DNA from: Arenicola marina
Taxonomy: Eukaryota; Annelida; Polychaeta; Arenicolidae
Length of the DNA stretch: 64,000 nt
Assembly: GCA_964019135.1 (NCBI GenBank)
Contig: OZ025248.1
Coordinates: 33,907,670 to 33,971,669, forward strand
Direction: 5' to 3'
The notes beneath the pieces were generated by a model. The model did not search any database. It saw only the letters and a list, made by a program, of their open reading frames with translations, and was not told the DNA's origin. The position numbers and the translations under genes were made by a program. Below are positions 7,345 to 37,214 of this stretch, in pieces (within the stretch, counting starts at the first letter, position 1; each line of letters begins with the position of its first letter).

Positions 7345-7393
7345 ATGGGTCAGCTATGTAGCTGTCACAGGGCGGACCGCGCCTGGTCGTCAG
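7345..7393 (+). CDS. Alternative first coding exon 1A, myristoylation/palmitoylation motif
   Basis: The ATG has a strong Kozak context (GACCATGG). The exon encodes MGQLCSCHRADRAWSS plus the first base of a Gly codon, then meets a clean donor (CAG|GTAAGC). It ends in phase 1, which joins in frame to the acceptor at 34506/34507 and would give a protein of about 918 residues. Met-Gly-Gln-Leu-Cys-Ser fits the N-myristoylation pattern, and Cys5 and Cys7 are placed for S-palmitoylation, as in SH4-type membrane anchors. That would put this isoform on the inner face of a membrane. The link to the main exon rests on phase and orientation only, across a 27-kb intron. It could instead belong to an unseen gene. 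Confidence 0.5.
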
Positions 7394-7960
7394 GTAAGCA
7401 TGGGGGGGGGGGCGTCTCGCCTCCGGCCCTCGCCCACGTACGCCCCCTCCCGTTCAGTTTGTACTATGTGGCCCGTTGGATTCGCGTGCTGTGGTATTGT
7501 AAATGTATGTACATAGCAGATGTGTGGGAGGGTGGTGTGTGCTGGGTAAATGTGGAGTTTGTTCAGTCATGGTGTGTCTATCGTGCGAGATTTCTGTGGT
7601 GGGACAGAAGGGCTGCGCAGAAACTGTCAATGGTACAGTCATGTACGGTTACGTCATGACAAGAATCGGGTTTTCCACCCCTTTGTATCAAGTAATCCGT
7701 ACTCCTCATTTCCACGTGGCTTAAACTCCACTTTAGGCAAGGCCGTAGGATGTGGTCCGGCGGTACCGGCTCTGGGACCGGCTATGGCCAGACCACTTTT
7801 GTTGCGGCGTTAGGTTTTTCGTGTGATCCGGGACGCTACCCCTTCCCCAAGTAGAGTTGCGCTTGTCTTTGGCCGGTGGGACATGCGAAAGTGTCCCCCA
7901 ATGCGGATATGCCCCCCTTATAAAATACATGATATTGAGACTCTCTCCGCTTTATGTGTT
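7394..7960. other. Intron sequence
   Basis: Begins with a poly-G run just after the donor. No further coding signal is seen up to the fold-back element. Confidence 0.5.
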
Positions 7961-8245
7961 CGTACCACAGGCACAGTAAATCGACTAACACAGAGGGGAG
8001 GGTGGGGAGGGGTCCGCACCGCCTACTAATAAATAAGAACGGGGGTGGAGGGCGGGGAGGGTCCGCACCGCCTACTAATAAACAAAAACGGGGGGTGCGG
8101 CGGGGGGAGGGCGGGGAGGGTCCCCACCGCCTACTAATAAACAAGAAGTTTATTGTTTATTAGTAGGCGGTGCGGACCCCCCCCCCCCCTCCCCACCCCA
8201 CCCACCCCTCTGTGTCAGTCGCTTTACTGTGTCTGTGGTTCGTAC
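7961..8245. mobile_element. Fold-back (long inverted repeat) element
   Basis: Roughly 80-90 bp at the left (from CGTACCACAGGCACAGTAAA) recurs inverted at the right (ending with the complement of the same phrase near 8241). The inverted arms include GTCCGCACCGCCTACTAATA. The left arm holds three tandem copies of that phrase. The centre is the near-palindrome around TTTATTGTTTATTAGTA. No open frame and no obvious target duplication. Best read as a fold-back or MITE-type insertion. Confidence 0.65.
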
Positions 8246-8920
8246 GGTGCCATTATGATATGGCGACTTTGGAGAGCATACCACAGACTACCAGTCCATT
8301 CCTACGACTGAGTGTTAGGTCCGTACAAAGTGTTACTAAGCAGTGCTTCCACCTAGTGAGCGATTCCGTGTGTTTATGATAACCAACCCTGGGGTGATAT
8401 ACACGATACTCTAAAAGGACACCGTTCAGTGCAGAGCGCTCGCCGGCACCTCACGTGGATCTCCAGTTAACTGTAACCCGGTATTTAGAGAGATTCGGCA
8501 TCCTTAGCCGCCCCCGGCCGGCGCCACTCGACGTTGGGTTGTGGTTGGATCGGATGCCGGGGGGGGGGGGGGATGGGGGAGGAGTGGGGGGTCCTACGTA
8601 CTGGTTGACGTACAGCCGTGCGGTTTTTGCGGTCAGCCTCGAAGTTGTTCAGTGAGTGCTAAGGGTTCTATAGGAGTTTGTTTCGTAGCTAGAATCCAGA
8701 TTCCTATTGTCACCGCATCTGGAAACCGTTTGAGGGAGTCCCAAATATGTTCATGGGTTAACAAAAGTATACCTATATCTTGTCGCCAAAGTTCTCTGCA
8801 TAAATTAGCTCACCATATAAGTGTTCCGTCACCAGTGGTCACTGGGTATAACTTGGTTTGTCCCTATGCCCATATGGGTCAATTGTCCTAGGTCTATTGC
8901 GTTCCTCTCTATGTAAATTA
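8246..8920. other. Intron sequence
   Basis: No exon recognised. A G-run lies at 8559-8571. Confidence 0.4.
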
Positions 8921-9450
8921 TCTGATCCTGACCGCTTCCCTGGGTCACTGTGTAAATGATCTGATCTTGGCGGCGTCTCTGGGTTCCTGGCAAGCTCCCC
9001 GCACGGTGGCACTACGCAAGCGCCGCTTTTACCGCTTCTATCGGCCGGGGGCAAATTTCAAGATTCTTGAAAAACGGTCAAATCAGCTGTAATTTCTTGC
9101 AACATTGTAGTTTTCAACAATCAAACATAAAAAAACGAGCTTTGCTTATTTAATACAGCAAAACACATCTTGTACCCTTTCGCAAAATTTATAATTGGGA
9201 CAGAACTCTTTCTTTTCATCACCTGATTTCATGTGTTATTAGGCTTAGGCTGGGTCCCAGCATTAACTTTTAGAAATGCCGACGCATTTTTCCTATCAAT
9301 TTGCGCAGCGCCGCCCTGAGTGTGAAAATGCATTGAGGACGTAGGCGACAACAGAGATATAATGAAGCCCTAGCGGAGTAAGTCGAACGCAGAGAGTGGG
9401 TTCCTGGGTAAACTGTCTGACCTTGACCGCTTCCCCAGGTCATTGGGTAA
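8921..9450 (+). repeat. Short degenerate minisatellite split by an inserted element
   Basis: Phrases close to TCTGATCTTGACCGCTTCCC and GGTCACTGGGTAAA recur on both sides of 8991-9397. They indicate a few tandem copies of roughly 35-50 bp that existed before the insertion. Confidence 0.45.
8991..9397. mobile_element. Non-coding transposable element with 10-bp target duplication
   Basis: The element begins CAAGCTCCCCGCACGGTGGC and ends GTCGAACGCAGAGAGT. It is flanked by the perfect 10-bp direct repeat GGGTTCCTGG (8981-8990 and 9398-9407). A second, shorter copy with the same ends lies at 42779-42894 with its own 9-bp duplication. A target duplication of 9-10 bp recalls Mutator-like elements, but I see no clear terminal inverted repeat. 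A retroposed sequence is the main alternative. No coding frame is present. Confidence 0.6.
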
Positions 9451-9788
9451 AGTACGCTAGCTCAGACCCCTTTCCATCTGACAGTGAGTGACTACGGAAT
9501 ACTGGACCTGTACAAAGCAAACACTCAAACACGTGGTTCTTCTGTTTGGTTCCTGCTTGGTTACAAATTACTGTCGAGAGAAAGTGCTTCGCTGTCGTCT
9601 TGGGTCGGCCTTCTGGTGGTCTTCTGTCAGAACTTGAGAATCTGGAAGCGACGACTGCTGTCTGTGGTAAACCGCATCGTCCTGTCTGTTGTTAAGTGGG
9701 TGTTTGTCACCAGGGTCTCCTGGATGTCGTCAGGGGAGGGCCCGAGACACAAACAAACCGTGACGACCGCTGGGGACGGAGTGGCGTG

Positions 9789-9841
9789 ATGGCGACGAAT
9801 GTGGGGGGTGGGGGAGGACAACAGTGGGCACTGACTGAAAG
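9789..9841 (+). CDS. Possible further first exon (phase 2)
   Basis: ATGGCGACG opens a frame reading MATNVGGGGGQQWALTE. It stops at a strong donor (GAAAG|GTGAGC) in phase 2, so it cannot join directly to the acceptor at 34506 in frame. It would need an intermediate exon or belong to another transcript. A short frame with a good start and donor can arise by chance. Confidence 0.2.
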
Positions 9842-9929
9842 GTGAGCGGCGTGAGGTGGTCCAGATCTTAAGCCACGCCCGGATCCGGAAAGTAAACCAG
9901 CGCCACTTACCGGACTGATAGTGAAAGCC

Positions 9930-10280
9930 GAATGTCGTCCGGTTGTGTTCTAGCGCCCCAATGCCCACTCATCCCTCCCTACCGCCCTCACTCCCTCCCT
10001 CCCTCCTGTCACCCACGCTCCGTTGCCCAGGCCCCGTCACCCACGCCCTGTTTACCCTGCCTGACTCCCGCAGGAGACGCAGGAGCTGCACTCAGAGCTA
10101 TCGTCCCCCCTCCTGTCGCCCCCCCCCCCCCACCCCCCTTCCGCCCCTCCCGCTCCCCTTCCGTTTCCCTCCACCTCACCCTCTTCCCACCCAAACCACT
10201 TTCCCTCATGCGGGATGATAACCTCAGCGCCCCTATCCCTTACCCCCCCCCCTCGGGTCCCCAGTGATAAAGAACCGCGC
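9930..10280. repeat. C-rich low-complexity tract
   Basis: Pyrimidine-rich sequence with many CCCT and CCCCC runs, open in several frames on both strands. The frames are composition artefacts. No gene is supported. Confidence 0.6.
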
Positions 10281-10450
10281 TGGGACACATCTTGTCTGCC
10301 CTGGAGCCCCTTTCACTGGCGGCCCTGGCTGGGTGAGCAGTCAGTTCACCGTGTCCGCCAAGTGTGTCCAGAGTCTCCTGAGTCACAAGTCGTCGCGATG
10401 CCGTCTCTGGGTGTGCTGGAAGCCGGAAAGCGGACAACTTAATCAATCCA

Positions 10451-10545
10451 GATATGTACCTGTAGCCGGATAGCTGATCCATTGGTCCAGGGATGTACCT
10501 GTAGCCGGATAGCTGATCCATTGGTCCAGGGATGTACCTTTAGCC
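10451..10545 (+). repeat. 39-bp tandem repeat, about 2.4 copies
   Basis: GTAGCCGGATAGCTGATCCA recurs 39 bp apart (10462 and 10501), with GGTCCAGGGATGTACCT between, then a decayed third copy. Confidence 0.85.
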
Positions 10546-10844
10546 TGACCTGTTGACCTGTTGATCCATGGATGTAGTTTAAGCCGAACTGCCGAACTCT
10601 GGATATCCACTCCTGGAGTCAGAATACCACATGGATACCAAGCAACATCTTCACTTAATCGATTCCAGATGTTAGTTTACTAATGGAAGGATAAATTTGT
10701 AGACTTTCCCCCGGGAATACAGACATCGTTGGCGACCACTGACTGTGTAGGTCAGAGGGTTTAATACTGGCCGGAGCCTGTGGCAGTTCGGGACAGCTGA
10801 GTACCCTCCCGGGAGGGGGTGGTCCCGGGGTCACCGGAGTCAGC

Positions 10845-10914
10845 ATGGAGCATCTGGCGCCCTGCTACTGGACGCAGGGCACGGACGACCAGGACACGCC
10901 CAGATTCCTGGAGG
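10845..10914 (+). CDS. Alternative first coding exon 1B, no acylation motif
   Basis: The ATG (GTCAGCATGG, purine at -3) opens 23 codons beginning MEHLAPCYWTQGTDDQ and ending with FLE. The exon stops at a GT donor (GAGG|GTAGGA) in phase 1. Joined to the acceptor at 34506/34507 this makes a Gly codon and continues in frame, predicting about 925 residues. The second residue is Glu, so this isoform cannot be N-myristoylated and would be soluble unless recruited. The 120 bp upstream is GC-rich, but I see no specific promoter element. The donor is weaker than that of exon 1A. The assignment is inference from phase, strand and position. Confidence 0.4.
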
Positions 10915-10989
10915 GTAGGATGCCATGGTTACATTGGGGGGGGGGGCGCCCCCACTCCGTCCCCCCCTAACGTACACATCCCTTCTATA

Positions 10990-11515
10990 TAACCCCGGTA
11001 TCTGACCCCGGTATCGGACCCGATTATTTGTCCCCCGAATCTGACCAGAGTATTTACCCTGGTATCTTATCATGGTATCATGGTATTTGACCCCCGTATC
11101 TGACCCCGTATCTGACCCCCGTATCTGACCCCCGTATCTGACTTCGGTATCTGACTTCGGTATCTGACCTCGGTATCTGACTTCGGTATCTGACTTCGGT
11201 ATCTGACCTGAGTATTGGACCATGGCATCTGACCTGAGTATCTGACTCCGGTATCTGACCCCGGTATATGACCCGATTATTTGACCAGGTATCCGACCAG
11301 GGTATCTGACCCCGGTATCGGACTAGAGTATTTGACCAGGTATCCGACCAGGGTATCTGACCCCGGTATCGGACTAGAGTATTTGACCAGCGTATCTGAC
11401 CAGGGTATTTTGACCAAGGTATCTGACCCCGGTATCGGACCTGACTATTTGGTCCTGGGGGACTCAAGTATTTGATTCTGGAATCTGACTCGAGTATGTG
11501 ACCTGGGTATCCGCC
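10990..11515 (+). repeat. Degenerate 12-25-bp GTATCTGACC minisatellite
   Basis: Dozens of copies of GTATCTGACC with short variable spacers (CCCG, TTCG, AGGG), including longer duplicated blocks such as GTATCCGACCAGGGTATCTG. The lack of stops in several frames follows from the repeat. Confidence 0.9.
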
Positions 11516-12410
11516 ATGTGGCTCACTTCCCAGTCAGTAGCAATCTCCGCGGACACACCACTCGGAATGTTGGCCGCTGTATTTAAGTGTTTTTGTGCAA
11601 CAGATGGCCCTATGCTTGGTGACGCCCTCTGGTGGTCCAGATGAACAATCTACTTTTTTGCCTCCTTGGGTTTCTGGTTTCACTGGGAGACCTAACTGGC
11701 GTGGGGACTCGATCAAATTTGTCGCATAGTAATAACCACCCTCGTTTCCGTCTGTTGCTGAATTGCGTTCCTTTATTGTGATGAATAACCGGGCGTCTCA
11801 CAACGCAGAACATATTAGTTATATAGATTAGCATAACGCATGTACAGGTTAGTGCAAAATAATGGATTTCAGAATGGCTGAGCAGCAAATGTGCATAGAA
11901 AGTTAAACCGTCCGTGCATGTGGCCGTATCTGAGCGGGAAATAGCTCGCATATTTCTCCTCGGCCTGTTGTGTAACGGGAGAGTGGGTTGACGATGACGT
12001 GATAGCGAGCCACCGGCGGAGGTGGGGGGTGGGGGCGGAGGTCTATGCAAGGTGCACGCGGAGGGAGGGTGGCGAGGGTGGAGGAATTAATATCCTCTTG
12101 TGTCATATTCCAAACTCTGCATGGTGTCCAGACCAATTTGAAAACGCGCCAGTGCCGGTGACATTCCCTGGTGTAGGTGACACTGCCTGTGATAAAACAA
12201 CCTAAGTGGAAGAGAGTCATTATTATGATTACTCAATGACATTGCAAAAACCTTTGAAACAAAACCACGTGTCGGTGATGACTGCCGGTTACACTGACGT
12301 AGTGTGGATGACTCTGTGGGGACGAACATGAAAGGCATGACCCCCCCCCCCCCTCCTCCCACCCACCTCATCACTGGTGCTAAAATTACTGTTATTCTGC
12401 CGGGCAAACC
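11516..12410. other. Intron sequence
   Basis: No exon recognised. GC-rich near 12020-12080, and a C-run lies at 12340-12353. Confidence 0.4.
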
Positions 12411-12495
12411 CTCTGTAGCTCAGTCGGTAGCGTATTGACTTTTCAATAGAAGGACTTAGCACCCTAGCTAGTCTCGTTCACATCACTTTGTCGCA
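12411..12495 (+). mobile_element. tRNA-like fragment (Lys/Glu-like), decayed SINE head
   Basis: The A-box TAGCTCAGTCGGTAG is followed by an anticodon-arm-like hairpin (TATTG...CAATA) with a T-rich loop. The B-box region (TCGTTCACATC) is degenerate. It cannot form a good tRNA, so it is a tRNA pseudogene or SINE head rather than a working tRNA. Confidence 0.45.
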
Positions 12496-12599
12496 GTACG
12501 TGTCTTGGCCCTCGTTGTAACTTATGTGTGTACAGAAGTGACCCGAAACACCACTCAGTCATTCTGTCCCAGAAACTCCAAGATTCTATAGCAAAGTAG

Positions 12600-12660
12600 G
12601 TGTGTGTGTCTGTGGGTGTGGGTGTGGGTGTGTGTGTGGTGGGGGGGGGGGGTAGTCCTT
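12600..12660 (+). repeat. GT/G-rich simple repeat
   Basis: TGTGGGTGTGGG units run into a poly-G tract. Confidence 0.8.
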
Positions 12661-12884
12661 TGCTCCATTATCAGGTTACGGACAGACAAAAACATAATTT
12701 GCTGAAATATGGTAAAATACACAACTTGGGGAGGCGGGGAGAGGGAGAGGGGGTAGGGGCGGGGTTGGTTTGCACAGGGATGACACGGAGTGGGTGGTGG
12801 ATGATGGATTAGGTAGAAGGCGTGGCTGCTGGGGCAAATTAAGGCGTGGTTGTGAATATTATCCATTATGATATTTCTAATAAA

Positions 12885-13160
12885 CGTGGACGTAGCGTGG
12901 ACGTAGCTAGCGTGGGCGTAGCGTGGACGTAGCGTGGGCGTAGCGTGGACGTGGCGTGGATGTAGCGTGGACGTAGCGTGGACGTAGCGTGGACGTGGCG
13001 TGGACGTAGCGTGGGCGTAGCGTGGACGTAGCGTGGGCGTAGCATGGACGTAGCGTGGACGTGGCGTGGACGTGGCGTGGACGTGGCGTGGACGTAGCGT
13101 GGACGTAGCGTGGACGTAGCGTGGATGTAGCGTGGACGTAGCCTGAACGTAGCGTGCTGG
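12885..13160 (+). repeat. 11-bp minisatellite (CGTAGCGTGGA)
   Basis: About 25 copies of CGTAGCGTGGA with GTGG/GTAG and GGGC/GGAC variants. It yields repeated open frames on the minus strand that are not genes. Confidence 0.95.
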
Positions 13161-13450
13161 TAGCATTCTCCATCCACACCGGGCTCCGTTCAATCTGTTT
13201 ACCGTGTTTACCGTCTCACGCCCTGGTATGTGTGGTCGACGCGCGCGCCACCTGTGAACGTATGTATAATATATAATTGTATATATATATATACATGTGG
13301 GACTGGCAGTGGGCCATATGGCTGGCTACCCGTTACGGAGGCTTGGACCCCGGGGACCAGACAGAAAAGGATAGATCCCCTGAGGTGGTAGGGGGGTGGG
13401 GGGGGGGAGCTGTGTATCGTATTTTTAACTACGCATTGCATGTTGTCAGC
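13161..13450. other. Intron sequence with short TA repeat
   Basis: An AT-rich patch (13262-13295) and a G-run. No exon seen. Confidence 0.4.
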
Positions 13451-13454
13451 AGGG

Positions 13455-13735
13455 ACAGTGGTAGGGGAGGGCGTCTCGGGGGAGATTGGGTGGGTGTGGG
13501 GTGGGGCTGGAGGTGGGGGTGGGTGTGGGGGTGGGAATGGGAGCAGAGAGGGTGGGGATGGGGGTGGGAATGGCGGCAGAGAGGGTGGGAATGGCGGTGG
13601 GAATGGGGGAAGAGAGGGTGGGGATAGGGGTGGGAATGGGGGCAGAGAGGGTGGGAATGGGGGTGGGAATGGGGGCAGAGAGGGTGGGGATGGGGGTGGG
13701 AATGGGGGTAGAGGGGGTGGGAAGATAGGGCGTGG
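13455..13735 (+). repeat. 33-bp purine-rich G minisatellite
   Basis: GCAGAGAGGGTGGG recurs every 33 bp (13543, 13576, 13609, 13642, 13675), with TGGGAATGGGGG between. Purine on one strand throughout, with regular G-runs that could form G-quadruplexes. The length is a multiple of three, so both strands stay open. Confidence 0.92.
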
Positions 13736-13914
13736 GAGGTGCTTGCGGTGGGCGACCATTGTATTATTGTCATCGTCAGCCAACTAGTGACAATATACAG
13801 TGACCGTTACCGGGGTAGGGTGGGGGGTGCCGCTCCTCCATTATAACGTATCTAATTAATGCTCTATATTTACGTGGCTGTCATCCGCGAATTACTCACC
13901 GCACTCAGACATCA

Positions 13915-14035
13915 TGTGTTATATATACGTCTATATATACATACATCGATAATTTACCTCGTGCTATATATATATATATATATATATATATCTATGTAAT
14001 ATCATAGATATATATATTTTTACATCGATAATTTA
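13915..14035 (+). repeat. TA microsatellite with CATCGATAATTTA modules
   Basis: Two CATCGATAATTTA modules flank a TA dinucleotide run of about 24 bp. Confidence 0.85.
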
Positions 14036-14588
14036 TGGATTGGTAGTTGGTTAGCTGGTTTAAGTAGGAGACTTGAACATCTGAGATACAATAATCAGCG
14101 TGAACAGAAAGGTCATCCAAGGTCACAACAGGTGGTCACCGGCCACAGTACGTCAATGCCAAGAGGTTAGCAATGTCAGTTAGCCTATTGGTCGTCATAG
14201 TGATGCCAGAGGGACAGGACAAAGAGACAGTGTGACCCTCTACACCCTGCCAGGAAACATCATGTGTACAACGCAAGGATACACTCTGGAGGCACACAAA
14301 TGTATTCATTGTTTAAGGAGTTTCAATGTATTTATGTACAGGAGTTCCAATGTATTTATGTACAGGATTCCCATTCGCGCGGTTTTGCCCGTGAGATCGT
14401 TCCATGTACTTGCCATGGTATAGTGACTGAGAACTTGACCCTCTACGACAGGTCGCCCATCTTTGTTCCTTGGGGACTGACACTAAACCCACAAATTATT
14501 TGTTCAGATTCAAGCGTTGACTCCAGCTGATGTCAACGGTTTGGTTGTGATCGAGAGAGAAGACTAGGAACAATGGAAGCTCATTGTG
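14036..14588. other. Intron sequence
   Basis: No exon recognised. Two copies of TCCAATGTATTTATGTACAG lie near 14322-14365. Confidence 0.4.
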
Positions 14589-15030
14589 CCTGTGGTGTAC
14601 GACAGTGTAGGATTTGGTACGACGGTGTGGGATTGGTGTACGACAGGGTGGGATCGGTGTACGACAGAGTGAGGGTATGGTGTACGACAGAGTGAGGGTT
14701 TGGTGTACGACAGAGTGAGGGTTTGGTGTACGACAGAGTGAGGGTTTGGTGTACGACAGAGTGAGGTTTGGTGTATGACAGAGTGAGGTTTGGTGTACGA
14801 CAGAGTGAGGTTTGGTGTATGACAGAGTGAGGTTTGGCGTACGACAGAGTGAGGTTTGGTGTACGACGGTGTGGGAGTGGTGTACGGCAGGGTGTGGGAT
14901 TAGTGTACGACAAAGTGAGGTTTGGTGTACAACGGTGTGGGATTAGTGTACGACAAAGTGAGGTTTGGTGTACGACGGTGTGGTATTGGTATGCGACAGT
15001 TGGATTGGTGTACGACAGAGTGCAATTGGT
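14589..15030 (+). repeat. 22-23-bp minisatellite (GTACGACAGAGTGAGG)
   Basis: About 20 copies of a unit containing TGGTGTACGACAGAGTGAGG, with variant copies carrying GACGGTGTGGGAT. One edge is continuous with the tail of a SINE-like element. Confidence 0.93.
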
Positions 15031-15235
15031 TGTTGGTTGTGTATTCAGGACGCTTGATGGGAGAAGGCAGGGAGAGCGGAGCCATGTTCCCGGGGTTTAA
15101 CCCTCTACTCTTTGCGAAGAAGGACAATGGATCTTTATCCTGCGACCGCACATACATGGCCACATCGGGGCTCGAACCACCGATCCACGTGCCGTTATGC
15201 CCTCAGGTGGCCAGAGCACTCAATGCGACCACTAT
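15030..15235 (-). mobile_element. tRNA-derived SINE, copy 1
   Basis: On the minus strand a tRNA-like head with B-box GGTTCGAGCCC is followed by a body (GGATAAAGATCC, CTTCTTCGCAAAGA) and an ACAACCAACAACCA tail. The same body and tail occur at 16527-16782, defining a family. The head is truncated or diverged beyond the A-box. Confidence 0.65.
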
Positions 15236-15600
15236 ATCCCCCTGGGATGTGGAGCAGTTGTCACAGGGTGTGCCATGCGGTTCCAGAAATTTCTGTTATA
15301 TATGTCTGACGATGACGTAGATTATGAAGCAGACGATGGCGTAGCTGATGACTTCAGCAGACGTCCTTCCACACACACGGTTTGCCCTCGGGTAGGAGCC
15401 GGTGTATAAACACAGGGAGTCGCCGGGCGGGGGCGGGAGGGGTGGGGTATATATGTACGGGTGATGGTGGGGGGTTGCGATGAGTTACCTCAACACCTGG
15501 TGTCGGTAGGTGGTCACTCCCTCAAGGTAAAGCAACATGCCATGTTTACTGTAAACCACGTCGCAACAGTCTCTTTAATAATATGATAGGGCGATACGAG
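15236..15600. other. Intron sequence
   Basis: An acidic open stretch from ATG at 15302 (MSDDDVDYEADDGVADD) ends near a GTAGGA at 15392 in phase 0. I do not support it as an exon. Otherwise nothing recognised. Confidence 0.35.
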
Positions 15601-16045
15601 GGCAGGGGAGGGGGAGGGGGCGGAAGCGGGGCAGCGTGGTCAGGGGGGGGGGGGCTGGAAAGGGGAGGGTATAAGGGCAGGGGAAGGGGGGCGGCGGCGG
15701 AGGAGCCTGGACAGGGGAGGGGCAGGGGGCGGTGGGGCTAGAAAGGGGAGGGTATAAGGGCAGGTTAAGGTGGGGGGGGGGCGGGGGCGGGGGAGCCTGG
15801 ACAGGGGAGGGGCAAGGGGCGGGGGGGGGGCTGGAAAGGGCAGGGTATAAGGGCAGGGCAGGGGAGGGGAGGCGGGGTAAATAAAGAAAGTGAGAGAGGA
15901 GGGAAGGAAGGAGAGAGGGATTAAGAGAAGGGGGGGGGGCAGGAAAGGCGGGAAGGAAGGGGTCACAGGACCGGGGGGGGGGGGAGGCGTAAGGAGGGAA
16001 TGAAGGAAGGGACGGTATATAGGAAAAAGAAGGGGCGGGTGAGGC
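15600..16045 (+). repeat. G-rich purine repeat tract
   Basis: Degenerate repeats with GGGTATAAGGGCAGG at about 15667, 15750 and 15843, then GGAAGGAAGG modules and several poly-G runs. The long minus-strand proline-rich frame here is a composition artefact. Confidence 0.85.
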
Positions 16046-16526
16046 GAAGGAAGGAACGATAGAGTATAGTAGAAGATGGCATTGAAAGTGCGTTGGGAAT
16101 GAACCTTCCAGCTTCCACCTCCCTGCTCACCCACCCAATGTTGTAAAGCTGTTCCTGTCCACCATATGCTTGGCGTGTTGCATGTGGAGTGGGCGCTGTC
16201 AAACCTGCCCACGCCAAGCGTTTTCCTCAGGGACGCAGCTTAAGCCTCGTACCGGATGTGGTCCGTGTTTGTTGTAGGTCAAAGGTCAACTGTGGCGAAG
16301 TCGTGTGGGCCGTACGTCTACGTTAATTAAGAAGACGGTTCCGGTTTGGTGTACGCTGTAACGTTCTAGGAATGCGGGATACTTTCCACAGTCGTGGGTC
16401 CCCCAGCCGCACATTGACGTAAACTGTGCACGCCGTGAACCGCTAACATGTCCAGGTGCCGACCCAGTGGGGTGGGGTGGCGTGGAAGGGGATCTGGACC
16501 CCCGCCCCCCCCCCCCCACACACACA

Positions 16527-16782
16527 CACATTTTTTGGTTGGTTGTATATTCAAGACGCTTTAACCATTGTTGGTCATATCGCGTCAATGGGAGAAGGAA
16601 GGCAGAGTGAAGCCGTGTCTCCGGGGTAACCCCGTAGTCTTTGCGAAGAAGGACATGGGATCTTTATCCTGCGACCACACAGCCATGGCCACAGCCGGAC
16701 GCGAACCACTGATCCACGCGCCGTTAGGCTCTCAGGTGACCAGAACCCTCAAGGCGAGCGCTCTAACCCATTGAGCCGGACC
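16527..16782 (-). mobile_element. tRNA-derived SINE, copy 2 (most complete)
   Basis: Minus-strand head GGTCCGGCTCAATGGGTTAG carries an A-box-like segment. A long variable region follows, then B-box GGTTCGCGTCC, the shared body (GGATAAAGATCCCATGTCC) and a CAACCAACC tail. The spacing resembles a class II (Leu/Ser-like) tRNA ancestor. A CA-dinucleotide run borders the tail. Confidence 0.7.
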
Positions 16783-16984
16783 CCCCTCCTTTTTTTTTGC
16801 GAGAATGCTAATTGTAAACCGTTTTACATGTGGACCCCCCCCCCACCCCCCTCGCATTTGATTTAGCAACGGACCCTTATTATTCCGTGGACCCGCTGTT
16901 TTGTTCCGTGGTGTGCGGTCGTAAGGTTTTGACGTTTCCTAAGTCACTGACTCACATAGGATTGAATTGCGGTGCACAAAAGCG
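16783..16984. other. Intron sequence
   Basis: T- and C-runs next to the SINE head. Nothing else recognised. Confidence 0.4.
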
Positions 16985-16987
16985 ACC

Positions 16988-17075
16988 TAAACCATCCATC
17001 CATCCATCCATCCATCCATCCATCTATTCATCTATCCATCCATCCATCTATCCATCCATCCATCCATCCACCCAT
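16988..17075 (+). repeat. ATCC microsatellite
   Basis: About 20 copies of CATC/ATCC tetranucleotide with occasional CTAT variants. Confidence 0.95.
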
Positions 17076-17585
17076 GAGGGTGTGTTATATAGGTTATAAC
17101 TTATACTCACATGATGAGTCAAGACCCACCATGAACATCCATGGACAAGCCACACATGTGAAGGTCGTAGGCTGCCCTGGAGGTAGTCAGTCACTACCTA
17201 TGCGTGACTAAATTCACTTACTTCATTTACCTGGGGACCTGGGGGAATGCCCGGCGGTCAAACTCCGGTCGCATATTCTGCCTGTCGATACAGACAGAGA
17301 GACAGCAGGTTTAATATACCTCCGCGCACCCCACCCCCCTATTCCTCCCCCCACCTCCCCCCTCTCCTCATCTATATACTACCACTGGACGGTCAACCGA
17401 AATCACTCAGCGCGCTCATTAAGCTACTTGCTCGTGGCATCCTGCCAATTGGTTACCTTGGGTTTCCTATTCATCGCAGTGACGCATTCTGTATCGTGAA
17501 TGTGAACACACGGCCAATGGAGCCACTTTGTTGAACTTATATTCACTTCCGGCCTCCGCAAATGCAACAGTGGAGCTCTGGGATT
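17076..17585. other. Intron sequence
   Basis: No exon recognised. C-rich near 17325-17370. Confidence 0.4.
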
Positions 17586-25372: not shown

Positions 25373-25607
25373 ACCGGTGTAGCATGATAACCTGTCCGCC
25401 GTGATAAAGTGTCCGGCTGACGTGCGCGCATGCGCAGCGAATAGGGTTGCTATGTAAATAGCGCATTTTTGTTAGGTTTAGGGTTAGGTTATGGTTAGGT
25501 TAGGGTCAGGGTTAGGGTTAGGATTAGGGTTCTGGTTAGGGTTAGTGACATGAAAAAAGCGTGGCCGGACAGGTTATCACGGCCGGACAGGCTATTATGT
25601 TACCGGT
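25373..25607. mobile_element. MITE with telomere-like core
   Basis: Imperfect terminal inverted repeats of about 45 bp. The left end reads ACCGGTGTAGCATGATAACC then TGTCCGCCGTGATAA. The right end, on the opposite strand, reads ACCGGTAACATAATAGCC then TGTCCGGCCGTGATAA. Both ends also carry a second TGTCCGGC-like subrepeat. The core at 25471-25545 is a run of degenerate TTAGGG/TTAGGGTT repeats. The left terminus resembles the repeated phrase of the 51-52 kb array. No open frame. Confidence 0.65.
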
Positions 25608-26754: not shown

Positions 26755-27530
26755 TTGGTCTTGGGCGTAGGCAGTTTGAGTGGGCGTCAAGGAAGGTGAG
26801 GTTAATCTGTATGAGCATGGTTAGTCTGGGTGGGCGTGGTTAGTCTGGGTGGGCGTGGTTGGTCGGTGTGGGCGTGGTTAGTCTGGGTGGGTGTGGCTAG
26901 TCTAGGTGAGCGTTGTTAATCTGGGTGGGCTTGGTTAGTCTGGATGGGCGTGGTTAGTCTGGGTGGGCGTGACTAGTCTGGGTGGGCGTGCCTAGTCTAG
27001 GTGAGCGTGGTTAGTTTGGATGGGCGTGGCTGGTCGGTATGGGCGTGGTTAGTCTGGGTGGGCGTGGTTAGTCTGCATGGGCGTGGTTAGTCTTGGTGGG
27101 CGTGGTTAGTGTGGGTGGGGGGTAGGTGTTAAGTATGGGTATCCCTGGTCAGTCTGGATGCGTCTCGTTGGTCTACATGGGCGTGGTTAGTCGGAATGGA
27201 CGTGGTTACTCTTGGTGGGCGTGGCTAGTCTGGGTGGGCGTGGCTAGTCTGGGTGGACGTGGCTAGTCTGGGTGTGCGTGGCTAGTCTGGGTGAGCGTGG
27301 TTACTCTTGGTGGGCGATGTTGGTCTGTGTGGGCGTGGTTAGTCGGGATGGGCGTGGTTGTGAATGGACGTGGTTAGACTTGGTGGGCGTGCCTAGTCTG
27401 GGTGGGCGTGGCTAGTTTGAGTTGGCCTGCTTAGTCTGGGTGGGCGTGTCTAGTCTGGGTAGGCGTGGCTAGTCTGGATGGGCGTGGGTTAATCTGGGTG
27501 GGCGTGACTAGTCTGGGTGGGCGTGGTCGG
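26755..27530 (+). repeat. 19-20-bp minisatellite (GGGCGTGGTTAGTCTGGGT)
   Basis: About 38 copies of GGGCGTGGTTAGTCTGGGT with GGCTAG, GGTCGG and GATGGG variants. A longer segment containing GGTAGGTGTTAAGTATGGGT appears both before the array (26708) and inside it (27120). Confidence 0.93.
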
Positions 27531-27590
27531 CCTCAGGTCAGCTAGCGACCAGGTCAGACCAAGGTGAGGTGCCAATCTGTTCGCGGACAG

Positions 27591-27988
27591 CCGCCGTGTG
27601 CTCAACACAACCTGGATCCTATTCCGGATTGCTCTGCATCAGTTTCCTTCCGCAGACTTGACCTGGCCGTCTGGATCACCTGGGCTGTCCACCCATGTTA
27701 TAACCAAGCGTGCTTTGGTTTATATAGATGTATAGTGCCGTTCTTTTGTTCGCATGCTAAGCCACTGTCTCTCACGCCCATGGTATAACCCGCCGTGTGC
27801 TCAACACAACCTGGATCCTATTCCGGATTGCTCTGCATCAGTTTCCTTCCGCAGACTTGACCTGGCCGTCTGGATCACCTGGGCTGTCCACCCATGTTAT
27901 AACCAAGCGTGCTTTGGTTTATATAGATGTATAGTGCCGTTCTTTTGTTCGCATGCTAAGCCACTGTCTCTCACGCCCATGGTATAAC
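27591..27988 (+). repeat. 199-bp tandem duplication, two essentially identical copies
   Basis: The block starting CCGCCGTGTGCTCAACAC at 27591 restarts at 27790 and I see no differences across the copies. A third, partial start (ACCAAGCGTGCTTTG) follows. Identity points to a very recent duplication or an assembly artefact. Confidence 0.9.
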
Positions 27989-28902
27989 CAAGCGTGCTTT
28001 GCTTTATATATATATACCAGTATGGGGAATCGGTACGGTTCGTTAACGAGTGGAATGTTCAGGGAAATTATTGCACATTTGAGGATACAGCTGATATTTT
28101 ACTTTTGCTTTCATTAGTACAGACGAAAATATAACGTTTGCCACAAATCCTGCTACACCTTGGGGTTTAAGGGGTGGTTCGAATATTAATTTTACAACCA
28201 CTTTGCATTATCCATCTCGACTGTAGCTGTGTACCTTGCTGAGCGATCGCAATATTAACAAAGCTTTTTCCAAGTGGACGTTATATTTGAACAAAGGTCT
28301 CGCCGTTTGGCATAGATAACGAGAGTGTTACATCTAAGAATGTCGTCCTGTGTACATCGAATCACTGACTTCGCCATGGGTTCCTAAAGGTGGCCTAAAG
28401 CGTTCCATCCATCCAGCCGTCTGCTGCACGATCCTGGTCCGCAAACTGTTGATTAAAGATGAAACGGCGTGCCATAGACGGCAGTACATCCACATGTGGC
28501 CTTTGGCTGGTCCTTGAAGGCCGGATGCCCTCGGGTAAACAGACGCCCTAGTGGCCGGCAGGTGAACCAGAGCACCGGGGTAGTAGAAAGTGTCCGGATC
28601 GGACCCCCCCCCCCCCCCGCCGGGACCCTCCCCCCCCACTTCCACTCTATCCCTTCCAGGACGAGGTCAGGGGCGCAAGTTGGCGTTCGGGATCAGTGTC
28701 CAGATAGCCCTGGATCATGGCGGCCAAGCCCACACCGAGAGCCTTCATACCTCACCTAAATATTATTGGTCTGAAACTAAATCTGCACAGATATGAATTA
28801 TTATAATAAAATTGTCAAGTTATTATATTATCATAAAATCGTCATACATCATCCTAATAATGGAATGTAATTGCTGTCTTAAAATCTGTTTTTATTATGA
28901 TA
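27989..28902. other. Intron sequence
   Basis: Poly-C at 28604-28618. No exon supported. Confidence 0.4.
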
Positions 28903-29115
28903 TCTGAAACTGGTCTTGAAATCTGAAACTGGTCTTAAAATCTGAAACTGGTCTTAAAATCTGAAACTGGTCTTAAAATCTGAAACTGGTCTTAAAAATT
29001 GCAACTGGTCTTAAAATGTGAAACTGGTCTTAAAATTTGCAACTGGTCTTAAAATCTGAAACTGGTCTTGAAATCTCAAGCTGGTCTTGAAATCTCAAGC
29101 TGGTCTTGAAACTAG
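28903..29115 (+). repeat. 19-20-bp minisatellite (CTGGTCTTAAAATCTGAAA)
   Basis: About 11 copies of CTGGTCTTAAAATCTGAAA, with CTCAAG and TTGCAA variants toward the right end. Confidence 0.94.
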
Positions 29116-32100
29116 AACTAGAGATATGTCTTATGGATATGTAACTAGGCGTACTGTACTATGACGTGGCTCTGACTGAGCCCATTGCAACATCCGCAGT
29201 ATTAAATGTACAACCACCATCGGGACAACCACGTGGCTCTGGATGGGGCTGTTGCTAAGGTTCCTCACTTCGAGCCCCCATGCTAGCCCCCCCCCCCCCT
29301 CCCTCCTTACCACCCATCGTTGCATCGACTCCACATGTAGTTCTCACCAGACCCCAGGGCAGTCTGGTGCCACTGATGGAGTTCTAATAGATTCAAAAGC
29401 GGGGGCTTAATTGGCCGGGTGTGTCCACAGACTATTTACTCTGCGGCCTGCCTGCAGTCCGTGTCTGACATGTGTCCTGGCTTATTATAGACTACGCACG
29501 CTGTTTGCTTCATAATTTAGGTATGGAATGCCGACTTATTAAACACTGAATTAATAAATTATGCCAACGACTATGTGAGGTCGGCCAAGGTATGAAACTG
29601 TGAAGTATGTGTGAATGCCTGCCTGCCCATGTTGGCTCGTCCCAAAGGTCACTGGTGCTATATTCCCGGACGTTTCGTGATCAAGTCGAATTCAGTTCAT
29701 CAATGGGGTAACAAGTGATGCTCATGGCGTTGGCACCCACAAAGACGCTACAAATCGCAGACGCTGATCTGTAGAGAAGCATTCTAGGCAGATCGTTTTG
29801 TAACTTAAGACAAATGATATATCTAACATGACTTGCCTGGATCAAAATCAGCACAAAATCCAAATGGTACGTACCCCCTCCCTCTCCCAACCCCCACCCC
29901 GACAATATTGAGCGTATCCCGAATCCGCTCCTGGATAGGTTGAGAGGGGACAGGACTCTCGGGGGGTTTTATATCATTCTGCCGTGGTCCGGATGCCGTC
30001 ACACGCCTACAGGTAGGAGCTCTGCTATCTAATGAGGAACTAACTGTCTGTCTCTTCTTTTTATTCCCATTTTTTATCTGAAAAATAACTCTGCCATAAA
30101 TAGTTTTCCTATTGGCAATGGAGATATATGAGGGGTAGGAGAGGGGGTGGGGGTATGGTGCCAGGGCTATGTTTAGCTGTGGGAGAGTGGGTCTCCTAGG
30201 ATGACTGTAGCCCAGCCCATGACAAGCACCAACTGCCCCTGCCAACACCCCCCCCCCCTCCCACTCCCCTCCCCGCCTCGGACGCCGCGAGGCCGGAAAC
30301 TTTCTCCCCCCCTCTTGTGTATTTACTCTCATGCTGTTGAGGCGCGAGTATGGATGCTATTTTTTGTCTTCCTATTTTTTCGGGTTAGGCCTGGCTTCCA
30401 ATGTACCACCACTCCCCCCCCCCCCCACCCCTACCACCCCCCCCCCCCCCGAGTAGGTCCGGGTATAGTTTGGAATGTGCCTCCGGAGAGCCAAGCTAAT
30501 GGTGTTTTGTGAGTGGGGGGTGGAGGTAGAGAGTGGAGATAAGGGGGTGAGGGGTGTGTAGCGGGGAGGGGAGGGGGGGGGGGTAGAATCTGGGCTGTCC
30601 TGCCAGCTGTGTAGGCAGACAGACACCACTGGTCCTATGGTCCTAAGAGGTCTAAATGGTGGTGAGAGCTGATGGTGTGGGTTATTTAACACACGGCCAT
30701 AGGGTAACTATAACTTTGAGCACTGGTTGGCATGCGGCATGGCATGACTGGACGCCGGGTAAACCAACACACACACTCCACGTGGGCCGACTACTGCATG
30801 CCCGGCCGGCCATTTGTCACTGCTTCCGCGTCGTTATTTACTGCCGGTGGACCTACCACTCACTCACCCACATTCCTATGGCCTCCCACTACACGCTGCG
30901 CCTCGGGATCCCGACACTTCAGGTTCAGTGAGACGCGCGCGTCCCTAGCTCCCGGCGCCAGCACTGCGCGCGCACCTCGCTCCACGTCGTACGTGATTGG
31001 CCCTTATCGGCGTTTTTTTTTGCCATATGTTTGAGACGTGAATCAGCGATTGGCTTCATCCCCCGCCGAGACACTCCGTGGAGACAGACCCTCACCGCTC
31101 TGATTAATCATAATACGATATACACTTGCCCCCTGCTCGCCCGCCCGTCACCCCACCCCATCCCAAGGGGAAGGCGGCAGCACTGGCCAGGTGTGGCCCG
31201 TCGCGGGGTGCCCTCAAACCGCAGCGCGGTGTTATCTTCTGAGCCATTTGGTGGCGGGAATAGAGGCGCCTGGGTGGTTTGTTATTAGGTCGTATCAGGC
31301 GCAGACATGACACATCAGGAATCGTATTGCGCCTACAGGGAAGTCGAGTGAAATCGGAAGTGAATTGGTCCGACCAGCAGTGGATGGGTGCCACTTGATA
31401 TAGCGACCCCCTCTTTGTATCCCATCGCATGCCGCTTGGGAAGAAACCATGGCGACGTCATCTGGCGGGAATGTCGTATTGCAGCAGACGACATTTTCTG
31501 TAACGTCGTGAATCGGGGGAAGGATGCGGCGCAGATTTTGGCGTGCCAGCTCAGGATACGCAGCAAACTGTGAATGACTGACTGACTAAGCAATGCGAGA
31601 TGAGATTGTATGATGATACATGTAGTTATGTTGGACTCCACATCTAGGCATGATGGAAATCGCGACTACGTTCTTGCTATCTTTATGCTGGAACATACAT
31701 AATGTTGTTAGTGCATCCAACCGATGTTACTATTATTACATGCTGCGAGATCCTCCTGTGGTGGTGCTCATAGATCACTGATCAGATTCCAAAGACAGCC
31801 TCCTCCTCCTGAAATATTTTCACTGTGATATCACACCGGGGTACCGTCGCTCTTTGTCTGCCGGTGTCAGTGATAACCCGCCGCTAAAAGCCAAGGATGC
31901 ATGGTGAGAGCTGGTCGTGCTCGAGTCACTTCGTACCGCAGTAGAACGAAACAAAACCCCAGCGCCGACCATCTCACACTGACTGGATGGCTTTATGAGG
32001 TTAGGCGAGCAAACACCCCGGACATCGGAGGAATGCTGTGGTGGGCAGCTAGGGTATCTATCTATCTATCACTGACATCCAGCGGTCTGCCAGACCGGAA

Positions 32101-32490
32101 ACTCACACTGTGTCATCCCCTTTTTGTGCCGGTTTGTCGGTGGAATAATACTTCGTTTGTTGTTACTACAACGCCAGTGTGGTTGGTGCATGGTGGTGTT
32201 CTCAGCTTGGCTCCGGTCCCAGTTTCCAGATCAACCTCGTTTGGAAGCAGTGACACGTCGGTTGTGGTGGTATTAACTAACTGGCCGACATAAATAAAAT
32301 GGTCGTGGCTGATATAATCAAAGTTGATGGGTTAATTAGCATTACGACGGCGCACTTGTATGTGGCTTAGATCTTCTCAGAACGGTGATCTGAACAGTCA
32401 CAATATAGCCTACCACCAGTCGCCTCGCTGGATATACATACCTACAGTGTTCAGGATATTTACAATACCTTTATGGCTGGAGTGCCCGTA
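29116..32490. other. Intron sequence
   Basis: No supported exon. It holds poly-C tracts (29286, 30248, 30411-30450), G-rich DNA (30510-30590) and a CpG-rich patch (30920-31290) with CCAAT-like GATTGGC boxes that could be another promoter. An ATG at 31449 is followed by a stop within 21 codons. Confidence 0.4.
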
Positions 32491-32495
32491 TGCTG

Positions 32496-32568
32496 CTTAT
32501 GACGTCACCTGGGCTCTGAGACGAGAGTGGCGCAGTGTTATTGTCTCTGGAGCCGCGATCGGATCAGG
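32496..32568 (+). promoter_or_regulatory. CRE-containing promoter or 5' UTR of first exon 1C
   Basis: A CRE (TGACGTCA) at about 32500-32507 lies some 60 bp before the exon 1C ATG, in moderately GC-rich DNA. The parallel with the CRE cluster before exon 1A supports co-regulation of the two putative starts. Confidence 0.45.
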
Positions 32569-32611
32569 ATGGGTGCTCTCCCTACCAAGGACCGCTTCAT
32601 CGCCAAAATAC
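32569..32611 (+). CDS. Alternative first coding exon 1C, myristoylation motif
   Basis: The ATG (CAGGATGG) opens MGALPTKDRFIAKI plus the first base of an Arg codon, and ends at a strong donor (ATAC|GTGAGT) in phase 1. Splicing to 34507 across a 1.9-kb intron makes CGC (Arg) and continues in frame, giving about 916 residues. Gly2 with Thr6 and Lys7 fits the N-myristoylation pattern. There is no nearby cysteine, so the second anchor would be the basic residues (Lys7, Arg9, Lys13, Arg15). This is the first exon closest to the main exon and the one I trust most. Confidence 0.6.
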
Positions 32612-34096
32612 GTGAGTGTACGGCCTTTGGGGGTCGGGGAATAGTATTCTGGGGAATGGGGGGTTGTCAACTCACCTTGTGGTGCGAACACCTGGTGGCG
32701 CGCCTTGGAAAATAGGTGTCTCAGACCACTAGCTGTATCGCTCTGATAAATGTTGGCTTGAGAGTTATCGCATTGGCACATGATGCCGCATTACGTAGGC
32801 GTACAGCTTTAGGATAGACAGGATACGTGGAATGATGTAGTGTTGTGATCATGGGGCGTGGTTGACACTGATTATTGCTTGGACGTAAAAAGGGAGGGGT
32901 TGATAGAGCGGGTTGCCGCCAAAAATACCCCTTCCGAACCGATTTTGGCCGCAAAACCTCGACCGAGTCGATTTTGGCGGTAAAACGCCCAGACCGAGCG
33001 AAGTGGGGGGGGGGGGGGGCGGGGCTTACAGCCCACAGCAATGTATGAAGTACCCCCCTCGGGAGTAGGGTGCTTAAACTTCTGGAGGTTATTTCCAAAC
33101 AATGTCAAGGGTCAAGGTAGAGACGAACCCCTTACTGTTTGCGTCTTATCCACGTACCGGCCACGCGGTGTGGCCTAGCACAGCACAATCCGCGCTATAC
33201 TACTTACTCCCTCCCCACGTCCCTCGATGCGGCGTGAACACCGTCTGATACAGACTGAACGTTCCATCTTTTGGTTGTTTTCTAATGTTATCTGATGCCG
33301 CTGTACTGATGTGCTTGGGGAACGCATGGCAGTTTAATCACCAGCCGCAGATCCCGGATTGCACCAAGGGGAGATTTGCATTTGATGCAAAAGTGGGTTC
33401 GGGTGACGCTGTGAATGATGAGCGGAAGGGTGGGTGGGGGTGGCGTTGTGGTCAAAGGTTGAAAGAAAGGTGGATGAGGGTTGAGATTACTTTAGTTTGG
33501 AAATGTAGATCCCGAGGGTGGACAGGGGGGGGGGTGGGGGAGTTGCATGGCTATATTCTCTCCAGATTCGTCGTTCGGTGTGGGAATCTGACATTAACAC
33601 GGATCATTTCTATTGGAATTGGAACCTTTTCAGTGGTGCACCGTAGAATCTCTTCACTCCGAGACCCTCTAATGGCTCACTAGAGGGCGACACTGTTAAA
33701 CGATTCATTTGGTTCTGTAGTCAGTCTCGGTTATAACGTGCATGGTTAAACATGGCCGATGACCCATGTGTCCTCACCACACAGGGTGTATATAGCCCGT
33801 GTTTGTGGGCGGCAAGTCGACCGCCCGTTCAGCCCCTCTGACATGATTACACACAGGCACGCCGTCAGTCGACAAAACTGCTTGTTTTGTTTTAAATGTA
33901 TATCTAATTTCCGGGCTTCGACCGTGCTGAAATAGGGTAACCTGACCTATGGCGTTGCATACCTTCTCTACCAATGTTTGCACCTCCCTATATCTCTTTC
34001 GTTTATCCACTTCTCTTTCTCTCAGAGTTTCTACATCCCTCTCCGTTTCTCATATTTAAGACGAAAATCTACGATTTTCGTCCTATGTCGGTGTAT

Positions 34097-34129
<33 letters not shown>

Positions 34130-34506
34130 AGACGCATTATCTGTCGAATGCCTAAAGATATCGTTCTCTCCTTTTACCAAAATTTCTGTTTGTTTCTTCG
34201 TTTCTATACACCCCTCTCTCCATTTTCTATCTCGTTCTCCGTTTTCTACATCCCTCTTCGTTTCTATACCTGTCTGTCTGTCTCCGGTTCACTACCTCCC
34301 CCTGAGTTTACCCACTTCTCTCGCCGTTTCTTCACCTCCATTTCTGTTTCTTTGTTTCCATATAGCTCTCCATGTCCGGGTCAGGACAACGTATGTCTCT
34401 CCACACCTGCGGCTCCACACCCTGTGTAAAGTGTGCAGTATTGTCCATTACATGACAAGCCTGGTTCTAATGCTTTGTTCACACCGGTGTGTTCTTGTCC
34501 TTGCAG
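32612..34506 (+). other. Intron before the main CARD-LRR exon
   Basis: It contains dispersed TTTTGGCGGTAAAACGCCC modules (32905-33005) like those at 2325-2640, a G-run at 33005-33020, and a pyrimidine-rich stretch (33985-34380) with a CTGT microsatellite (34098-34130). That stretch keeps the frame open upstream of the true exon. The acceptor at the end (TGTTCTTGTCCTTGCAG) is strong, with TTCTAAT as a possible branch site. Confidence 0.6.
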
Positions 34507-37214
34507 GCAAGGCCGTGTCCCAAGATGCCTTGCTGTCCCTGCCCAGGCGGAATGGCCTAGGACCGCGGGCCTCACACCCCAACGGTAGAGGGCGCCACTT
34601 TAGCGGTCCCTACTACGACACAGCGACCCCTAGCGAGTCCCTGATGACGTCACCGCAGTACAACGGGAGAGTGAACACCCTGGAGGTATCGAACCCCGCA
34701 CAGCGGCAAGCAGCCGGCATGGGCGAGTACGGGGGGTACTCCCTGCCCCGCACCCACAGCCCCAGGGGCTACCCGGCGGCCAGGGGAGGGTACCAGAGGG
34801 GTGGCGGCAGGGGGGTGGAGTACCGGGACCAGTACCCATCCCCCCCTACGTCCCACCACCACGCGATAGGCAGTCGCAGCACCATGGGCGAATCCGGCTT
34901 CTCCTCGAAAGGGTCGCTCAATCTGGACACGAGCTCCGCGGGGCACCCTTCCAGCGCCCCGTCCACGCCGGAGCTCTCCATCCGCCGGAAACCGCCGCCC
35001 AAGCCGCCGCGCATGCGCACGGATACTTCGGGCCACCAGCAGCGCCACCAAGGGAGCGGCGGCGAGGATCACTTATCGCGCGGCAGCCTGACGCCCACCC
35101 CTTCGCTACGCTCCAACGGGATCCACTCGCTCAAGTCGTCCATCGCTGACGTCACACAAGCGCTGGACGCCACGTTATCACGCTCCTTCGACGGCGACGA
35201 CCTGCTGACGTCATCATCATCGCCGCCCAACAACGGCGGGCTGGCGTCGCCCACGGTGTCGGGGCCCAGCAGCACGGAGGAGAAGGTCTACAATATCCTG
35301 ACGCAGACCAAGCAGTTTATGTGCTTCGAGCTGGAGCCGCTGAGCATTCTGGATTACCTACGAGACGAGGGGGTCATCACCCCGCACACGGAAGTGGAAA
35401 TCCGGCGCATGCGCAGCAAGCAGAGCATGTGCGACTACCTGGTGGATATCGTGACGCGCAGGGGCCACGACGCCTTTATCGTCTTCTGCGACGCCCTCCG
35501 GCTGGTCGGTAACCAGGGTTACCTGGCCGACTTCCTAGAGGTGCTGGATACGCTGGTGGAAATCGCGACGGCCAACACCATGCGGCGCGTCGAGTTCGCC
35601 GACAAGTCCCCGGATATGCGTCATCGCGCGTTCTCCTTCGAGGGGGCCAAGGCCGACGGCGCGTGCGGCTGCCGGAACAACAACCAGGGCGGCGGTGGCG
35701 GCGGGGGAGAGGCGGGCGGCGAGGACGACATGTTCGGGGAGGACAGTAGTTTTGATATCACGGTGTCGTACGTCCATCGGGACACGGGTCAACTGAGGTC
35801 CATCAAAGAGGTGGCGTCGATGAAGCGACGGCGCCGACCACTGTCCATAACGTCGGAGGATTTGAACACGCTGCTGGAGGAGTCCGAGAAGTACGTACCA
35901 GTCATCAGCGTCAGCCTCTACAGCCAGTGCCTCAACATGGGCGGCCTGGACACGCTGACCACCATCCTCCAGAACTACCCCTGCATCCGCGAGCTCTCCA
36001 TGTCCAAGAACCACATCGGGGGCAGCGGCATGGCCAAGCTGGGGGCGGCCCTGGGCGGCAACCGGGGGCTGGTGGCCCTCGACCTCAGGCTCAACACCCT
36101 GGGGGACGAAGGCGCCGCGAGCTTGGCAGTCGGGGTGGCCCGGCACCGGGGTCTGCGCTCCCTCAACGTCTCCAGCACGTCGCTGACGGCGCGCGGCAGC
36201 TCCAGCCTCCTCGCCGCCCTGGCCAAGAACCAGTCCCTGACCGACCTCGATATGAGTTTCAACGAGCTCGACGACGGCTCCTGTAAAGTCCTCGCCGATG
36301 CCATGGTGATGAACTGTCCGCTGCGCAAGCTCAAACTGCGCTCGTGCGGCGTGCGCGAATACGGCGCGCGCTGCGTCTTTCGCGCGCTGCGGCGCAACGC
36401 GCGACTCACGCATTTGGATATGAGCGGTAATCGCGTGATGGACGAGAGTTTGACGGTGCTGGCGGATATTTTAATCCATAACCGGACGCTGCGCGAGATT
36501 AACCTCGAGAACTGCCATGTGTCACGTGACGGGTGCGCGTCCCTCGCGCGCGCCCTCAAGACGAATACGTCGCTGAAGCGGCTAGAGTTAAGCATGAACC
36601 CGTTGATAGGGGACGACGGGGCGGCCGCCCTGTCCGAGGGGCTACGCTACAACAAGGCCGTCGACATGCTCTGCCTCAACATGTGTAACATCGCCAACTC
36701 CGGCTTCGTCCGGATACTGGAGGCCCTGCCGTACAACACAACGATGCGCACTCTCAAGCTGTGTTACAACAATATAGGCCAGCCTGCCCCCGCCGTGATG
36801 GCGCCCACCCCGGACAGGTTAGGGGTGCCGTCCTCCGCGGGTGGGTGGGTGGGTGAGTCCCCACCCCCCTCCCCCAGGGACCAGTTCTATAAGGGCGGTC
36901 CGGCCACCTCCCTAGGGGGTCACTTCACCTTCCCGGGACAGGCGGATGAGGAGCCGTCGGTGGAGGAACTCTACGACAAACTATGTCAGGTGCTACAGCT
37001 CAATAAAGACCTCAAAGTCCTCCTCTGGGGAAACCGGTTCGACGAGGCTGGAACTGCTGGAGTGTCTGCTGGAAGCTGCTCCCCCAACGGCGGGGTGGAC
37101 GGGTCCAGCCGCTCCGTCAGCCCGGGGTCTTCGTATGACGCCGCCCCCCACGAGCCGTATAGGGGGGCCCCGGTGCTGGCACCCCCGCCCCGGGGCCGAG
37201 AGTCCGGGGTCTAG
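34507..37214 (+). CDS. CARD and leucine-rich-repeat protein, main exon
   Basis: This exon encodes about 901 residues to a TAG stop. Using exon 1A numbering, residues 18-270 are low-complexity and Ser/Pro/Gly-rich, with an SH3-ligand-like RRKPPPKPPR. Residues about 274-370 form a six-helix CARD-like domain (EEKVYNILTQTK through LADFLEVL). An acidic/glycine linker follows, with a basic KRRRRPLS site. Residues about 479-775 are roughly ten ribonuclease-inhibitor-type LRRs of 28-29 residues (LxxLxLxxNxL pattern). After a proline-rich loop a last LRR (LKVLLWGNRFDEAG) ends near 868. There is no NACHT ATPase domain, so it is not a canonical NLR. CARDs bind other CARDs in innate-immune or apoptotic signalling, and LRRs bind proteins. 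The role here, probably a membrane-tethered adaptor or regulator, is inference. The first exon is supplied by one of the upstream exons. The open frame continuing upstream of 34507 is intron. Confidence 0.85.

Follow-up and report, generated by a model that had tools for sequence, protein, structure and literature searches.

A candidate lipid-anchoring first exon, and possible alternatives to it, upstream of a CARD-LRR exon in the polychaete Arenicola marina

We describe a 64,000-nucleotide stretch of the Arenicola marina genome (GenBank assembly GCA_964019135.1, contig OZ025248.1, positions 33,907,670 to 33,971,669; hereafter the window, numbered from its first letter), in which a large exon encoding a CARD and leucine-rich repeats (LRRs) is preceded by three small candidate first exons, 1A, 1B and 1C. 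The large exon, to which all three could be joined and which we call the common exon, lies on the + strand at 34507-37214 and encodes a disordered proline-rich region, a CARD (approximately 35326-35540) and LRRs of the ribonuclease-inhibitor (RI) type, ending in a stop codon at 37212-37214. Its 901-residue product matches CARD (E 9.7e-10) and LRR_6 (E 6.1e-28) in Pfam, and CARD and LRR are the only families found, NACHT being unmatched at E <= 1. Of the features of NOD-like receptors (NLRs), the product thus has a CARD as death-fold effector and RI-type LRRs, and no NACHT match. By sequence, the PDB chains nearest to the CARD are Apaf-1 (CARD E 5e-4) and then CARD9, and those nearest to the LRRs are ribonuclease inhibitors and NLRPs; rabbit NOD2 appears among both the sequence and the fold matches of the LRRs. 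An AlphaFold2 single-sequence model of 594 residues, with a mean pLDDT of only 59.7, places six helices of the CARD in model residues 2-100 (block pLDDT 37-79), followed by alternating strands and helices, and the top Foldseek rows for this model are NLRP and ribonuclease-inhibitor LRRs. An earlier note on this DNA had named the exon CARD-LRR, a description that Pfam, the PDB sequence matches, the model and the fold matches all bear out. The proline-rich region N-terminal of the CARD contains RRKPPPKPPR, which we take to resemble an SH3 ligand. A 60-nt intron at 36818 was considered and not adopted, its length being divisible by 3 and its donor GTTAGG.

Where does the reading frame of the common exon begin? 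The acceptor at 34507 ranks 10th of 3112 AGs (score 6.97; donors, acceptors and Kozak contexts were scored by tables, and myristoylation by a PROSITE-type pattern). A codon score derived from downstream portions of the common exon rises in its frame from -0.56 at 34374-34505 to +0.17 at 34509-34643, where the other two frames score -0.40 and -0.93. The first in-frame ATG within the exon, at 34644, has a poor Kozak context (-1.5), as do the in-frame ATGs just 5' of the acceptor, at 34452 and 34470 (-2.1 and -4.8). Codon usage thus turns coding-like right at the acceptor, before the exon offers any in-frame ATG, which makes a further coding exon upstream of the common exon likely.

Three mini-exons on the + strand could provide it. 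The coding part of 1A (7345-7393, 49 nt, CAG|GTAAGC with the donor GT at 7394) encodes MGQLCSCHRADRAWSS plus G; candidate 1B (10845-10914, 70 nt, AGG|GTAGGA) encodes MEHLAPCYWTQGTDDQDTPRFLE plus G; and candidate 1C (32569-32611, 43 nt, TAC|GTGAGT) encodes MGALPTKDRFIAKI plus R. Their lengths all leave a remainder of 1, so that the donors are in phase 1, and each ATG stands between A at -3 and G at +4, with in-frame upstream stops at 7339, 10740 and 32500, respectively. Joined in silico to 34507-37214, they yield MGQLCSCHRADRAWSSG-KAVSQ... (1A), MEHLAPCYWTQGTDDQDTPRFLEG-KAVSQ... (1B) and MGALPTKDRFIAKIR-KAVSQ... (1C), each a single open frame in which the terminal stop is the only stop. These in-frame joins confirm what the earlier note had reported, namely three ATG-led mini-exons with phase-1 GT donors that fit 34507. 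None of the three exon regions has a second match in the window at E 0.01. A G-rich repeat with an inverted copy around TTTATTAGTAGGCGGTGCGGACC, mobile-element-like by eye, lies just inside the putative 1A intron (7960-8240).

The support for the three is unequal. The 1A donor is the third-best of 4345 + strand GTs and its ATG has a Kozak score of 2.55; among 200 first-order Markov shuffles of window positions 1-34450, none contained a phase-1 candidate of this quality (donor >=7.3, Kozak >=2.5). 1A therefore stands well above chance. 1B combines a weak donor (2.42) with a Kozak score of 2.75, and 1C a donor of 2.0, perfect on the intron side and poor on the exon side, with a Kozak score of 1.49; the splice and start signals of both are chance-like. 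Each has a separate support, gene-like codons for 1B and a full cAMP response element (CRE) together with a myristoylation pattern for 1C. Measured at 14, 16 and 23 codons, 1B ranks 14/959, 3/877 and 3/633 against noncoding background and 106, 53 and 19 against a composition-matched background, and its codon score of 0.36 is the best of 32 candidate rows, the next being 0.35. The codon ranks of 1C are middling to good, at 70/959, 78/877 and 60/633, and 110, 162 and 92 with the matched background.

The full CRE, TGACGTCA, occurs in a cluster before 1A (7193-7226) made up of a full site at 7193 and half sites at 7213 and 7221, together 124-152 bp 5' of the ATG, with the full site at 152 bp, and again at 32500-32507, 69 bp 5' of the 1C ATG. 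The statement of the earlier note that CREs precede 1A and 1C is thus upheld. The nearest upstream full CRE of 1B is 3652 bp distant. Among noncoding positions, 1.5% lie no more than 200 bp downstream of a full CRE. A wider candidate list, taken over both strands and all phases at donor >=1.9 and Kozak >=1.4 and leaving out 34400-37600, 46900-48400 and everything above 57000, holds 21 and 11 rows on the two strands, or 26 distinct ATGs. In two of the 26, 1A and 1C, the 200 bp upstream contain a full CRE, and three carry the myristoylation pattern with Ser or Thr at position 6, namely 1A, 1C and an ATG at 7400, in the first bases of the 1A intron. Were the two labels independent, the chance that both CRE candidates are of the pattern type would be 3/325, or about 0.01. 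The NRF1-like palindrome GCGCATGCGC lies at 6850-6859, 495 bp 5' of 1A; the window holds four copies versus 0.02 expected, at 6850, 25426, 35009 and 35405, and the two within the CARD-LRR exon each overlap an in-frame ATG.

The N-termini differ in their predicted lipid anchors. A PROSITE-type pattern test agrees with the earlier note that the Met-Gly starts of 1A and 1C fit N-myristoylation whereas that of 1B does not. The 1A start, MGQLCSC, is predicted to be N-myristoylated (Gly2, Ser6) and palmitoylated (Cys5, Cys7), a layout typical of the classic dual-acylation start; among the ATGs with a Kozak score >=1.4 (96 on the + strand and 85 on the - strand) it is the only one that joins the Ser/Thr6 pattern to a Cys in positions 3-7. 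The 1C start, MGALPTKD, fits with Thr6. Its earlier description as myristoylated-plus-basic stands as far as the pattern goes, the basic label resting on few residues (K7, R9, K13, R15, K16). Three of the five phase-1 ATGs with donor >=2.0 and Kozak >=1.4 fit the pattern (7345, 25197 and 32569), and at least three such ATGs were reached by 0.5% of the shuffles. In a survey of kinetoplastid proteins, Ser occupies position 6 in more than 70% of high-confidence myristoylation substrates and Thr in about 8%, and the PROSITE signature is said to yield false positives (PMC1885993). A second acylation is described as leading to kinetic trapping at membranes (PMC3668125).

Frames, phases, domains and chance levels are observations; what we infer about transcription, splicing, acylation and function is put conditionally. 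The best explanation overall, which we hold tentatively and at slightly below even odds, is that a distant first exon, 1A, anchors the CARD-LRR protein and that 1C and 1B provide further isoforms. The reading frame of the common exon would start in a far-upstream first exon, mainly 1A, behind a CRE-rich promoter. The product would lose Met1, become N-myristoylated at Gly2 in its Ser6 context and be palmitoylated at Cys5 and/or Cys7, and the CARD and LRRs would thereby be held at a membrane. A nearer, CRE-linked promoter would probably give a second, more weakly anchored isoform from 1C, and 1B may give a non-acylated one. It is reasonable to work with a model in which the CARD-LRR protein has a lipid-tethered form.

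Several observations weigh against this explanation. At donor >=2.0 and Kozak >=1.4 the window yields five distinct phase-1 ATGs versus a shuffle mean of 2.75, and 52% of the shuffles have at least three; counting every phase there are 16 rows, distributed 5/6/5 among phases 0, 1 and 2. With such candidates at chance level and no excess of phase 1, splice and start signals do not by themselves suffice to claim 1B or 1C. The thresholds of this list and of the wider one, moreover, were placed at the scores of 1C once the exons had been chosen. Full CREs are over-represented throughout the window (10 versus 0.84 expected), coding exons included, with three in the common exon and two in a glycosyltransferase frame, which weakens the CRE evidence. 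The coincidence of CRE and Ser/Thr6 pattern is suggestive only, given that the thresholds stood at the scores of 1C and that the features had been noticed beforehand. As to 1A itself, its intron would span 27 kb and its codons are not gene-like (rank 127/877, and 470/877 with the matched background), in a test where 16 codons hold little information.

A second explanation, less probable than the one we prefer, takes only 1A to be real: dual acylation would then be a constant feature of the protein, 1B and 1C would be ATG-to-GT stretches that arose by chance, and no switch would exist. For it speak the donor and Kozak scores, by which no mini-exon but 1A exceeds the shuffles, and the occurrence of candidates such as 1B and 1C at chance frequency, evenly over the phases; against it speak the full CRE and the Ser/Thr6 Met-Gly start common to 1C and 1A, and the top codon score of 1B.

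The N-terminus might also lie elsewhere, which we consider unlikely: translation would begin at 34719 or 34884, the first exons being noncoding, or else in an upstream exon that escaped recognition, and the protein would lack the mini-exon peptides. These two in-frame ATGs have the strongest Kozak contexts of the eight listed (3.39 and 3.81), so that noncoding first exons are possible; yet 34509-34643 is already coding-like by codon signal, and the starts MGEYGG and MGESGF carry Glu at position 3. An acceptor-like site at 34026 outscores 34507 (9.61 versus 6.97), but an exon from it was not adopted, as it reads through a CTGT repeat and the stretch just before 34507 is noncoding-like. A candidate internal exon at 10074-10332 also ends in phase 1; its 86 codons give a proline-rich, low-complexity read, and it was kept only as a weak rival. 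It comes from an AG-to-GT exon scan of the + strand of the window, in which the best 25 of 57 rows were considered; the top two of these were set aside as antisense within the glycosyltransferase frame. Very improbable, finally, is a reading in which at least one of the mini-exons is part of a different gene or of a long noncoding RNA and is not spliced to 34507: the distance is large, up to 27 kb, but the + strand at 1-34500, read in three frames with stops as X, has no Pfam match above the curated cut-off, and the phase matches in all three mini-exons, though they were picked for phase. Below the cut-off, at E <= 0.1, that strand matches DUF6465 (E 0.031) and CTF_NFI (E 0.081). Pfam likewise gave no match above the curated cut-off on the - strand at 1-9990, and Rfam and tRNA scans of the whole window gave none.

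We are fairly confident that the CARD-LRR gene does have 1A as a coding first exon, a confidence lowered slightly because of the strong ATGs at 34719 and 34884. 1C is a possible first exon, on balance doubtful, and 1B is unlikely to be one. That at least two first exons are in use is close to an even matter, falling a little short of it, and the full three-way switch between anchored and soluble forms is improbable. An anchored/soluble switch chosen by promoter is plausible but unproven. Of the promoter-set isoform switch advanced in the earlier note, a strong 1A candidate and a favoured upstream coding exon thus hold, while the use of at least two exons, control by promoters and acylation we only infer.

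The rest of the window holds features of other kinds. A 440-codon open frame on the - strand (46945-48267) matches Gly_transf_sug (PF04488, E 1e-06), a DXD-type glycosyltransferase; a Met first occurs at codon 80, after a hydrophobic stretch. A 4.6-kb tandem array at 57468-62079 consists of 103 copies of a 44-bp unit (92% matches), and a 44-bp array at 55159-55853 has a similar unit. About 13 GTTAGG copies form an interstitial telomere-type repeat at 25471-25545 (80% matches), and two tandem copies of a 199-bp unit at 27591-27989 match at 100%, reflecting a recent duplication or an assembly artefact.

The principle of a first exon that sets acylated versus soluble forms is already known from KChIPs and CYB5R3. 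The KChIPs (KCNIP), which accompany Kv4 channels as auxiliary subunits, owe their variable N-termini on a common core to alternative promoters and optional exons, as may be the case here; they are, however, calcium sensors rather than CARD-LRR proteins, and their isoforms and acylation are known from experiment where ours are predicted. The two forms of CYB5R3 presumably arise from different first exons. This enzyme, which has no CARD, exists as a membrane form myristoylated on Gly2 and as a soluble form, the two being identical except for their N-termini (PMC9706631). NOD1 and NOD2 are recruited to membranes by S-acylation through ZDHHC5 (PMC12005342 and PMC13286793), and the 1A anchor would be a built-in counterpart of this recruitment; these NLRs differ in carrying a NACHT, and the signal of 1A would sit at the N-terminus as an MG...C motif. 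A CARD-LRR architecture without NACHT was not found by text searches of the open-licence PMC literature, amphioxus included, which is no proof of absence, and is not described in passages of PMC2575513 or PMC6321704. One viral-contig scan returned no relative.

If only 1A is real, the locus would still encode a predicted N-terminally acylated CARD-LRR protein with no detected NACHT. The farther-reaching picture, which we regard as improbable, is that of a NACHT-less CARD-LRR immune scaffold located by transcription, with CRE promoters driving 1A (dual-acylated) and 1C (singly myristoylated) and a CRE-free 1B yielding a soluble form. Were it true, a tether placed in an optional first exon would let transcription set the site of CARD signalling, which cAMP/CREB-type signals would shift to membranes.

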